Shown piece by piece: positions 20,323 through 63,198 of a DNA stretch of 64,000 nucleotides. The translations under genes were made by a program, and so were the position numbers. The notes beneath the pieces were generated by a model. The model had not been told where the DNA came from. It did not search any database and was given only the letters and a program-made list of their open reading frames with translations. The stretch's first letter is position 1, and each line of letters opens with the position of its first letter. Source of the DNA: Pirellulaceae bacterium. GTDB taxonomy: Bacteria > Planctomycetota > Planctomycetia > Pirellulales > Pirellulaceae. Where the stretch lies: NCBI GenBank assembly GCA_019636375.1, contig JAHBXS010000003.1, positions 1 through 64,000 on the forward strand, given 5' to 3'.

Positions 20323-20410
20323 TCCCAAAAGGGGTCAGACCCTCTCCGGCTTGGCAACCAAACAACGTTAAATTTCGCTTAGCCTCCAAAGGGTCTGACC
20401 CCTTTTGGGA
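20323..20410. repeat. 21-bp inverted repeat (REP-like) between sufD and ferredoxin gene
   Basis: The left arm at 20323-20343 is the exact reverse complement of the right arm at 20390-20410; the core of each is GGGGTCAGACCC or its complement GGGTCTGACCCC. The 46-bp spacer has no gene. The arms are themselves partly palindromic around GGGTCAGACCC. This is the form of a paired REP (BIME) insertion. It can form a long stem in the suf transcript and may protect or attenuate the mRNA between sufD and the Rieske gene. Confidence 0.9.
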
Positions 20411-59193: not shown

Positions 59194-60471
59194 TTAGGTA
59201 GTCGAGTGGGCGGAAGAGGCATCTGCCGTTTGCCCAACAGCTCGGTGAGCCGCTGCATGATTTCCCTCAAGGAGAGGAATCTTTTTCGCGACTTGGACAA
59301 GAGCATCGACTACTTGTTGCATTTGATCAGTCGAATGCAGGGCACTTGGGGTCATCCGCACAATCGATGTACCGTAAGGAACTGCGGGATACATGACTGG
59401 ATTGACAATGATCTGGTGTTCTTCCTCGAGCATTTTAACGGCGTGCAAGGCCGTGACACCGCGGGTGAAGATCGACGTAACGGCACCTTCGGGATTACCG
59501 ATGTTGAATCCAGCCGCTCGCAAATTGTCTCGCAAGGCGTTGATGTTTTCCCATAATTTGATTCGGCGTTCAGGCAGTTTCTGCATGAGCTCAAGCGACT
59601 TGATCGTCGCCGCCACAATCGCCGCAGGGAGAGCCTTGGTCAACATGAAGCCCGGCGAGACGTGCCGGACGAAACGCAAGACATGCTCTGGGCCACAAAT
59701 GTAGCCACCAAAGGTACCGAACGATTTCGCGAACGTACCGCCATGCAGGTCCACTTCATGCTCAACACCAAACAGTTCGCAGGTGCCCCGACCATTTTCG
59801 CCGAGTACGCCAGTTCCATGAGCGTCATCAACAAACAGCCGAGCGTTGTATTTCTTCTTGAGTTCAACGAGCTTGTCCAACGGTGCAAGGTCTCCTGACA
59901 TGCCGTAGACGCCATCAACGGCAATCATCTTGGGGACATCGTCTGGGCATGCCTTGAGTTGCTCCTCCAAATCAGTCATGTCATTGTGAGCAAACCAAGA
60001 TGCCTCACCTTTGCATAACCTCGCACCATCGTGAACGCAACTGTGAGCGTAGGCATCGACAAAAATCCGTTCCTTGCGACCTACCACGCAAGCAATTGTC
60101 CCAGACATGGCGGACAGGCCCAAGTTAAAAACCAACGACGACTCCGTCAGTCGGTATTTTGCCAAGTCGGCTTCTAGGGCCAAATGCAAATCCGTATTTC
60201 CGGTCAACGGTCGCGCTCCGAGCGGGGTACCCACTCCGTATTGTTCGGCAATTCGAAATCCCGCTTCGACAACCTCGGGATGAACTGCGAGGCCTAAGTA
60301 GTCGTTTGTCGAGACCTGCAGGAATTCTTTTCCGTCGCGGATGTAGGTCGGCGTGCAGTTGACGATGGGGAAGCGTCTAAAAAAAGTATTTCGCAGTGGG
60401 ACCATCATTTCCCCAGCGATTTTCTCCATCCGTGCCCAGAATTCATCGCATTTTTCGAAGACATCCGCCAT
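59194..60471 (-). CDS. Alpha-oxoamine synthase family aminotransferase (SPT/KBL/AONS-like)
   Basis: A 425-residue PLP-dependent enzyme. The Schiff-base Lys is in LHGGTFAKSFGTFGG (near residue 245). The other landmarks, STNDYLGLAVHPEV, GVGTPLGARPLTGNTDLH, DDAHGTGVLGENGRG, occur in order. Family members condense an amino acid with an acyl-CoA: 8-amino-7-oxononanoate synthase, 2-amino-3-ketobutyrate CoA ligase, or serine palmitoyltransferase. The extra 40 residues at the N-terminus and 25 at the C-terminus, and the MVPLRNTFFRRFP start, are unlike BioF; the SPT-like reading is possible. No biotin or sphingolipid genes lie nearby to decide. Confidence 0.88.
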   Translation of the reverse strand: MADVFEKCDEFWARMEKIAGEMMVPLRNTFFRRFPIVNCTPTYIRDGKEFLQVSTNDYLGLAVHPEVVEAGFRIAEQYGVGTPLGARPLTGNTDLHLALEADLAKYRLTESSLVFNLGLSAMSGTIACVVGRKERIFVDAYAHSCVHDGARLCKGEASWFAHNDMTDLEEQLKACPDDVPKMIAVDGVYGMSGDLAPLDKLVELKKKYNARLFVDDAHGTGVLGENGRGTCELFGVEHEVDLHGGTFAKSFGTFGGYICGPEHVLRFVRHVSPGFMLTKALPAAIVAATIKSLELMQKLPERRIKLWENINALRDNLRAAGFNIGNPEGAVTSIFTRGVTALHAVKMLEEEHQIIVNPVMYPAVPYGTSIVRMTPSALHSTDQMQQVVDALVQVAKKIPLLEGNHAAAHRAVGQTADASSAHSTT

Positions 60472-60726
60472 ACTACGTTCAGCTCTCTAAACTCAGTAAA
60501 TGATTGACTAAAAACAGTGGGAAACCACAGGTCATCACGGCTAGATGCCATTTGGCAAGCGGAACCAACACGAATTTCGCAAAGTCGATAGTTTATTCGG
60601 AATTGAGTCGGTTGCAACTCTAGATAAAGGCGTCGCACCCGGCGTTTTGTTGGTTTTTTCGTCGCGTCCAGCACGTTTTAACATCGATATTTGGAATAAT
60701 TCAGGAATTATTTTTCGATTCAAGCT

Positions 60727-63198
60727 TCAAGAACTCGTCTCTTGTCCTTGTTTTTGCGGGATATTCAGTCGTTTTAAGTAGGCTGGCGGGGGGACGTAAG
60801 CTGGAGACGTCCCCCCGCCAGCAGTTATCCGTTTTCGTCCAAAAAATCTTCCTAATGGTCCGCTTAGCATCGATGGAAGTAGGATCAAGGCTCCCAACAA
60901 GCTTCCACCCAGCAAAACTGCCAGCAAAATCGAAAACCGCACGGTCGGCATAAATACACTAAAAACAAACGGCAAAGTACCCAGTCCGCATATCAACGTC
61001 GTGTCGATCATCGATTTAGCACAGTGCTGATAAGCATAAATGACTGCCAATCGCGGGCGTAGATTCTCGCGAATTCCCCGGCGATACCAGGCCAAAAAGT
61101 GGATCGTATCATCAACCGCAATTCCGAGGGCGATACTGGCCGTCATCACCGAGCCAATCTCAATCGCCATCCCCATCCAACCCATCGATCCAAAAACGAC
61201 CAACGGAGCAAACACATTGGGAATCATCGCTAGCAGCCCAGCCATGATGCTCCGCATCAACACCACCATCACCAACGAAATCAAGACGAAAGCCGTTAAA
61301 AAGCTGGTGACCAAATCCGATAGAACTTGCTGTTGGGCCTTGTACATCATGGGAACACCACCCGTGATGACTGCCGACATTTGCTCGCCACTTGGTGATT
61401 TGTAGATCCCGTTGGCAAGTTCCAAGAACTCGTCGACGACACCCGAAATTTGCACTAACAATCCGTTGTAATCTGTTTTTTCCATCGCCTTGATTCGAAC
61501 ACTGATCCGCCACAATTCTTTGTCGGGGTCATCCAACAGAACAGCGTTTTCAGAATAGACGCCGTCGACAACGTCAGGATCGTAGAAGCGTCCGGCGATG
61601 AGTCGATTTTCAATCAGCGATCGTTTACGTGTCCGCCAACCTGTCTTTCTCGCTTGTTGTTCGAAAGTGCGAGAGGTCGAAGGTGGTTGAAAGGTTGCCG
61701 CCGAATAAGACGCCTGAATAAACTCGCTTGCCCGAATATTTTCTTCAAGTGCTGAAACCAAATGTCCCCGATCCCAATGGTCAAACGGCAAGTCTTCACC
61801 GCGTTGCAAATCGTTAGGAATTTCCAACACGATTTCCATCGGAACCAGCGGCCCCAGGTTTTCTTCCAACCAGTTGTAGTCGCGAATGATTTTTGTAGAC
61901 GAATGAAAACGATTCTGAATACTTAGCGTCGCTTCTAGCCAAATCACTCCAAGGGCCAGAACGACCATAATGGCGATCCCGCTCAACGTGACTAATCCGT
62001 GATTCCGCAAAGTAAGTCGAGAAAGAATGAGAGCAGTGGACGATTGGTAACGCTTGCGTTTTAGCGAACCCTTGGCTCCACGAACAAGCTTCGGAAACAT
62101 TCTGGCGACCACTCCCAATGCGTATGGAAGCATAAACAGAATGATCGGGAGGCTGGCCAAAATTGCCATCGCTGAATAAATCCCAAACGACTTAATTGGC
62201 AATATCTGGCTGGACGCCAAAGACCCCATCCCCAACGATGTTGTCAAAGCCGCCATTGCCACCGGATAACCTCCGAATCGCACCGCAGATGCGTCGGCCA
62301 ATTCAGGAGTTCGAATGTAAGCCTTGATAAAATAATTTGTCATGTGAATGGAGGCCGAAACGCCCAGAATGAACGTCAACGTGGGCAACATGACCATCGT
62401 CAGGTTCATCGTCCCACCGGTGAGACGTAGTAGCGTCAGTCCCAGAAACGCACAATACAGCGAACACATTAAAATCGCTGCGGACAACACCGGATTGCGG
62501 GTTCGAATCCATGCCAAACCCATGACCAACACGACGCTCATCCACATGAAGCGCCGCAACGAGTTTTTGCTTTCTTGATCGATTGCTGCACCGTCAACCG
62601 TCGGGCCCCCAAGATGGATTTCATCGGGGGACAGACCCGTGATTCTGGTCGCTGTCTCGAGCGCGACGTCAATCGTTTCAGTGCGTTTCCGCGATCCTGC
62701 CGCTGATGGGTAGGCCAAGCAGCAGGTAGTCTTTCCATCGGGTCCAAAAAAGACTCCCGTGGCACGGGCCATCGCGGTCTCTTCGGTAAGCCCTGGAGTG
62801 CGCTGCAAACGTTCCAAAACCTCAGAACCTGTCGTTACTCGGTCAAAATACAATTCTGCCCGTTCGTTGCGTAGCACCCGCAACTCGGCAGCTAATCGGT
62901 CAAGTGGAGTAATTTCCGGTTCGACTAAATCACCATCGGCGTCTCGCCAAGTCGAAGTGTCTTCACAACCAGGCCAACTTATTACAACCATTTCGTCAAC
63001 GCCGAAACGGTCCTTGAACCACTCGTATTCCTGAGCCTCTTTGAATCCGCGAGGCAACCACTGATAGATGTCGTTCTCAAAAACGGTGAACGCCAGCGAG
63101 CCCTGCCAAAAGACCAGTGGCGAGGTCAAGATGGTCAGCCCAATCAACGCCTGGACGCTCCAGGCAACCCAAACAGGAGGTTTTTTGACGTCTAACAC
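60727..63198 (-). CDS. MMPL/RND-type exporter
   Basis: An 823-residue inner-membrane protein from GTG 63198. It has two repeats of six helices, each after a large periplasmic loop: first helix about 15-32, second set about 215-380, then 415-432, and last set about 665-800 (LLAMIPNVFAPLVVFGSMGWMG, LLAVLLGGSLLGALILLPSML). The GIAVDDTIHFLAWY motif near residue 700 with its acidic pair is the proton-relay-type motif of MMPL/HAE3 exporters. Such proteins in planctomycetes may move hopanoids or lipids. The last 20 codons contain a palindromic repeat in frame, which gives the AGGGTSPAYVPPPAY tail. Confidence 0.9.
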   Translation of the reverse strand: MLDVKKPPVWVAWSVQALIGLTILTSPLVFWQGSLAFTVFENDIYQWLPRGFKEAQEYEWFKDRFGVDEMVVISWPGCEDTSTWRDADGDLVEPEITPLDRLAAELRVLRNERAELYFDRVTTGSEVLERLQRTPGLTEETAMARATGVFFGPDGKTTCCLAYPSAAGSRKRTETIDVALETATRITGLSPDEIHLGGPTVDGAAIDQESKNSLRRFMWMSVVLVMGLAWIRTRNPVLSAAILMCSLYCAFLGLTLLRLTGGTMNLTMVMLPTLTFILGVSASIHMTNYFIKAYIRTPELADASAVRFGGYPVAMAALTTSLGMGSLASSQILPIKSFGIYSAMAILASLPIILFMLPYALGVVARMFPKLVRGAKGSLKRKRYQSSTALILSRLTLRNHGLVTLSGIAIMVVLALGVIWLEATLSIQNRFHSSTKIIRDYNWLEENLGPLVPMEIVLEIPNDLQRGEDLPFDHWDRGHLVSALEENIRASEFIQASYSAATFQPPSTSRTFEQQARKTGWRTRKRSLIENRLIAGRFYDPDVVDGVYSENAVLLDDPDKELWRISVRIKAMEKTDYNGLLVQISGVVDEFLELANGIYKSPSGEQMSAVITGGVPMMYKAQQQVLSDLVTSFLTAFVLISLVMVVLMRSIMAGLLAMIPNVFAPLVVFGSMGWMGMAIEIGSVMTASIALGIAVDDTIHFLAWYRRGIRENLRPRLAVIYAYQHCAKSMIDTTLICGLGTLPFVFSVFMPTVRFSILLAVLLGGSLLGALILLPSMLSGPLGRFFGRKRITAGGGTSPAYVPPPAYLKRLNIPQKQGQETSS
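60782..60822. repeat. 16-bp inverted repeat inside the 3' end of the MMPL gene
   Basis: Left arm GCTGGCGGGGGGACGT (60782-60797) and its exact reverse complement (60807-60822) are separated by 9 nt. The element lies in frame in the last 35 codons of the exporter gene and encodes a Gly/Pro-rich tail. The G+C of the arms is far above that of the gene, which points to insertion of a REP-like element. Confidence 0.9.

Follow-up and report, generated by a model that had tools for sequence, protein, structure and literature searches.

A perfect inverted repeat is found close to the end of a gene that codes for a membrane exporter in a Pirellulaceae bacterium. It raises the question of whether a mobile palindromic repeat has been captured inside a coding sequence, as proposed in the first-pass annotation of this DNA, or whether the hairpin belongs to the gene that carries it and serves some purpose there. 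The window considered here is the whole stretch of 64,000 nucleotides that was analysed.

The palindrome and its host gene

The host gene (60727-63198, minus strand) is an open reading frame of 823 amino acids coding for an MMPL/RND-type exporter; the protein matches the Pfam MMPL family (E 4.6e-17) and is RND-like. The repeat consists of two 16-bp arms (60782-60797 and 60807-60822), complementary at 16/16 positions, and a 9-nt spacer (60798-60806) that constitutes the loop. It is read in frame as codons 793-806 of the 823 and encodes AGGGTSPAYVPPPA. In the mRNA the right arm is the 5' arm and codes for A-G-G-G-T and the start of S, and the left arm is the 3' arm and codes for the end of Y, V-P-P-P and the start of A. 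The tail peptide contains an internal Pro-Ala-Tyr repeat. A GTAG tetramer (60778-60781, plus strand) adjoins the foot of the stem; within the gene it corresponds to the last base of an Ala codon and a whole Tyr codon, and its presence there could be forced by the codons of Pro-Ala-Tyr. The repeat had been correctly described as perfect, with a 9-nt spacer and in frame, and the translation of the open reading frame agrees with the claim that it makes a Gly/Pro/Tyr tail. Its assignment to the last codons of the exporter holds in the sense that it is near the gene end, not in the sense of the very last codons: 52 nt (around 17 codons) separate the palindrome from the stop codon.

The prediction of a stable stem in the mRNA ahead of the stop is supported by folding of the sense RNA, which forms the stem (124 nt; -45 kcal/mol; z -4.8 relative to dinucleotide-shuffled sequences). 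Only nine perfect hairpins with arms of at least 12 bp and loops of 3-20 are present in 464 kb of the genome, a sample made up of the window and 400 kb of other genome stretches; 264 kb of it held four such hairpins, and three mononucleotide shuffles gave 2, 0 and 0. The repeat is real and unlikely to be a product of chance, and pairing is eased by Gly codons facing Pro codons. When the 17-residue tail was recoded synonymously following local codon usage, a perfect stem of at least 16 bp appeared in 19 of 20,000 recodings. For the same-genus relative described below, with G-U pairs allowed, stems of at least 16 pairs were obtained in 218 of 20,000 recodings, and of at least 17, as observed, in 84. 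Fold energy alone is less exceptional than the perfection of the stem, as it is matched by approximately 6-10% of the recodings: over a 105-nt region, 58 of 1000 were equal or better in the window's species and 104 of 1000 in the relative, and the recodings were already strong folders (means of -31 and -37 kcal/mol). Among 158 segments of the window's gene the one with the hairpin is third, two mutually overlapping segments elsewhere being more stable; in the relative's gene, the most stable of 171 includes the hairpin.

The next gene (59194-60471, minus strand) encodes a PLP enzyme similar to BioF, Kbl and serine palmitoyltransferase, and this order is conserved in the relative. Upstream of it there is an intergenic block (60558-60631, minus strand) that is also conserved with the relative and may be a candidate promoter or leader of the serine-palmitoyltransferase-like gene. 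A sigma-70 scan detected no promoter-like site before the next gene, so a separate transcript for this gene is only putative. No terminator-like site was detected on the minus strand between 60300 and 61000, a region that includes the hairpin and the sequence downstream of the exporter stop; two such sites are located on the plus strand (60627-60653). The absence of a minus-strand terminator after the gene, together with the conserved block before the next one, suggests that the hairpin may be close to the 3' terminus of the message. The possibility that the hairpin is itself an intrinsic terminator was considered and rejected, since it sits inside the open reading frame and there is no site there combining a GC-rich stem and a T run. 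No Rfam match at E up to 1 was obtained in 60300-61200. Inspection by eye for a frameshift signal gave no well-placed slippery heptamer ahead of the stem, and in the relative the T-run upstream is not the same.

Copy number and transposase-linked hairpins in the genome

Several searches for a second copy have been carried out in the 5.24-Mb genome assembly, which is 94% complete. No other site was detected by exact search with the 13-nt core of the arm, by search with the 19-nt loop region allowing up to 3 mismatches, or with a covariance model of the hairpin. A 66-nt blastn query gave nothing beyond a single 19-nt match (E 3.6), which was taken for chance. In the reversed-pattern control, one match was obtained in the exact-core search and one in the loop-mismatch search. 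All these copy searches begin with a loose first pass, from which a very diverged copy could escape. No exact matches were found in viral contigs. Consequently, a mobile repeat family is rejected, the hairpin being single copy by exact core, loop mismatch, blastn and covariance model, and the description of the hairpin as mobile or as a REP is not supported: the arm was found nowhere else in the 94%-complete genome, an outcome that had been fixed beforehand as refuting it.

The same picture is obtained outside this genome. Among 241 genomes of the family, the covariance model matched seven at E up to 1, two of them strongly and five weakly. The two strong ones are the window's own genome and one same-genus relative, with one site each, and the single site of the relative is the orthologous one. 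Among 396 genomes of the order, a set that overlaps with that of the family, seven were matched at E up to 0.1, the same two strongly and the other five weakly. The nine weak loci (L050-L054 and L105-L108) were judged by eye to be different sequences rich in GC, the majority of them within open frames. One of them (L106, E 0.012), within an open frame of 201 codons, repeats Pro-Ala-Tyr-Val and so looks like one arm together with a portion of the tail peptide; this likeness was taken for probable convergence in a low-complexity protein.

GTAG at the stem foot, present in both species, is the one REP-like feature left standing. In the 464-kb sample, GTAG was found at the feet of 12 perfect stems with arms of 7 (6.6 expected), 7 with arms of 8 (2.5 expected) and 2 with arms of 9 (1.2 expected). 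This excess is mild, and some permutations of GTAG deviate equally. The seven GTAG-tagged stems of at least 8 bp all differ in sequence, and no family of GTAG hairpins was seen within the sample.

Ten matches to the Y1 transposase family (Y1_Tnp; L007-L016) are present in the genome, in eight open frames. Their flanks, scanned over around 1.5 kb on each side for arms of at least 8 and loops of 3-12, contain other hairpins or none, and no hairpin matching the exporter palindrome. At one of these loci (L007, G000:C3:852385-853566), five sites match the palindrome CCCACCGATWWATCGGTGGG with no more than 1 mismatch; all are grouped around a single Y1-transposase gene, an arrangement that resembles the clustered repeats of a REPtron or TIRtron. 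A family of long hairpins based on GCGGGCGTCTCGCCCGC (L008 and L077-L086) was matched 11 times, allowing 1 mismatch, at about six places in the genome, one of which is close to a Y1-transposase gene. The recovery of these repeated hairpin families beside Y1 genes serves as a positive control for the repeat search.

Two further palindromes were observed. Between two plus-strand open reading frames of the window there is a perfect 21-bp inverted repeat, TCCCAAAAGGGGTCAGACCCT (20323-20410), with 46 nt between the arms. Its arm contains GGGGTCAG, which fits GGGGWSAS, a motif of the terminal repeats of tyrosine transposases according to the available part of PMC3733652. The core of this repeat, GGGGTCAGACC, occurs 8 times in 5 of 20 sampled genome stretches, for which reason it looks like a repeat family. 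Elsewhere, an inverted repeat with perfect arms of 26 bp and a loop of 14 nt (L060:2992-3057) is located where an open frame of 1143 codons, counted from stop to stop, begins.

Ancestry and silent-site conservation

The relative (G001) belongs to the same genus, and its stretch, also labelled L047, comes from a metagenome assembly of an uncultured Pirellulaceae bacterium. Its exporter has 80% protein identity with that of the window and carries the same tail (17/18 residues identical), with the hairpin at the orthologous place. The PLP-enzyme, HU-like and SelA-like genes follow the exporter in the same order in both genomes. An assembly error is unlikely, as both genomes have the hairpin.

Of 30 exporter loci, 18 were inspected: the window's, the relative's and 16 others. 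None of these 16 more distant homologues, which include some of the same genus with 48-54% identity, has the tail. When 98 relatives were searched with the tail peptide, 29 had a match at E up to 1, and strong matches came solely from the two genomes that have the hairpin (next best E 0.0998). The comparison of the exporter C-terminus with homologues, proposed as a check when the hairpin was first noticed, therefore agrees with a tail that is strong only where the hairpin is present. The distribution among these genomes suggests that the hairpin was probably gained once, before the two species split.

A sign of constraint comes from the fourfold-degenerate sites. In the hairpin codons, 10 of 12 are unchanged with respect to the relative, versus 241 of 744 outside the hairpin, counted over the exporter and three neighbouring genes (Fisher p 4.7e-4), or 105 of 321 when the exporter only is compared (p 6e-4). 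Among 712 overlapping runs, each of 12 fourfold sites, that of the hairpin ranks first, and silent changes resume no more than two codons from it on either side. The loop shares 8/9 letters between the two species.

In the two sequences compared, the stems differ at two positions, C/T and A/G, both on the same arm. Both differences give G-U pairs in the relative's sense RNA, replacing G-C and A-U, and the 16/16 pairs are kept. On the opposite strand they are mismatches, and the fold energy of the relative is -33.5 kcal/mol for the sense RNA versus -26.0 kcal/mol for that strand. Changes that preserve pairing as G-U point to the mRNA as the molecule concerned, but weakly, as there are two one-sided changes and two random transitions would preserve pairing in this way with about one chance in four, by our own estimate. 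Measured against what characterises a conserved RNA structure, the silent sites are constrained, and the pairing changes are one-sided G-U substitutions in two sequences only.

Origin and possible role of the hairpin

The hairpin shares several features with known systems. According to the available parts of PMC3733652 and PMC2817692, the GTAG REPs, which include intragenic ones and RAYT-linked ones, are GC-rich hairpins with GTAG at the stem foot, are positioned near the 3' ends of open reading frames and show G-U pairs, all as in the exporter. The size of the palindrome (41 nt) is at the upper edge of the 20-40 bp of REPs. However, GTAG REPs exist in many copies whereas the exporter hairpin is single copy, and the stem lengths given in that part of PMC3733652 (mostly 6-9 bp, and 12-13 bp in a long family) are exceeded by its 16 bp. 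Besides, REPs have matching hairpins adjacent to the RAYT gene, and here none was found beside the Y1-transposase genes. The Rickettsia palindromic elements (RPE, as named in PMC3733652, in the part available) are similar in being in-frame palindromic DNA that adds residues to proteins, but the exporter hairpin, of around 14 codons, has no family of copies and is not mobile as far as tested; blastn, the covariance model and the tail-peptide search gave no case of the same palindrome in several unrelated genes. The stable, selected mRNA structures inside bacterial coding sequences treated in the accessible part of PMC3785496 are alike in having a stem kept with constraint on silent sites, with the difference that the exporter hairpin is known from two genomes only, so that covariation is barely accessible.

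Our tentative preference is for a single-copy coding hairpin that has been inherited vertically and that most likely acts as a 3' decay barrier or in 3'-end formation; as a best guess, it is a lineage-specific element close to the 3' end of the exporter mRNA, which it may shield from decay. In the common ancestor of two Pirellulaceae species of one genus, the C-terminus of the MMPL-family exporter would have been extended by a Gly/Pro/Tyr-rich tail, whose codons would have formed a near-perfect palindrome, and not only the encoded residues but also the nucleotides would have been maintained since then. The sense mRNA would thus carry a very stable stem around 50 nt ahead of the stop. This position is probably close to the transcript's 3' end, and there the stem would delay degradation of the exporter message in the 3'-to-5' direction or contribute to defining where the message ends. 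We infer the ancestral gain, this role and a separate promoter for the next gene. A strong RNA role is doubted because 6-10% of the recodings fold equally well and because the carriers are two genomes only, with nothing replicated. Translating ribosomes would also melt the stem at each pass, which counts against a role in the RNA.

Selection might have acted on the tail peptide alone, the palindrome being a by-product of the GGG...PPP pattern, since GGN (glycine) is complementary to CCN (proline). The near-identity of the tail in the relative, its internal Pro-Ala-Tyr repeat and the strong folding of its recodings fit this proposal, which we nevertheless consider unlikely, given the rarity of stems as long as the real ones among the recodings of both species and the conservation of silent sites far above the gene average. 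It is rather unlikely that the hairpin is the fossil of a GTAG-type REP, inserted once at the end of an ancestral gene, whose transposase and sister copies were lost and which now does nothing but code. The tetramer at the stem foot in both species, its mild over-representation at such feet and the Y1 transposases of the host genome argue for this origin; the single copy, the different sequences of the hairpins flanking the Y1 genes and of the GTAG-tagged stems, and the fact that Pro-Ala-Tyr codons also give GTAG argue against it, and a decaying fossil should not hold 10 of 12 silent sites.

Neutral upkeep by template switching during replication, in which the polymerase copies one arm from the other so that a quasi-palindrome is made and kept perfect, appears improbable. 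Homogenisation of arms in coding DNA is described for yeast in the available part of PMC8604942, and the perfect copy of the window and the confinement of the relative's differences to one arm are in agreement with it; on the other hand, the relative's two DNA-level mismatches have been left uncorrected, and template switching alone does not explain the same letters, loop included, across species whose other silent sites are near-randomised. It is quite improbable that a GTAG-type REP arrived once, outlived its family and its transposase, and was domesticated both as a protein tail and as an mRNA hairpin under selection, with a part in protecting or ending the transcript.

A selected coding hairpin, the preferred reading, would be a known kind of feature, of specialist interest and resting on two genomes, in which the conservation of silent sites is the one mildly surprising property. 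Looking like a REP does not imply that a hairpin within a gene is mobile. If the constraint is real, the silent sites of the hairpin have been kept although they are near-randomised elsewhere in the locus, and around 41 nt of this exporter gene would answer to two codes, that of the protein and that of the RNA fold.
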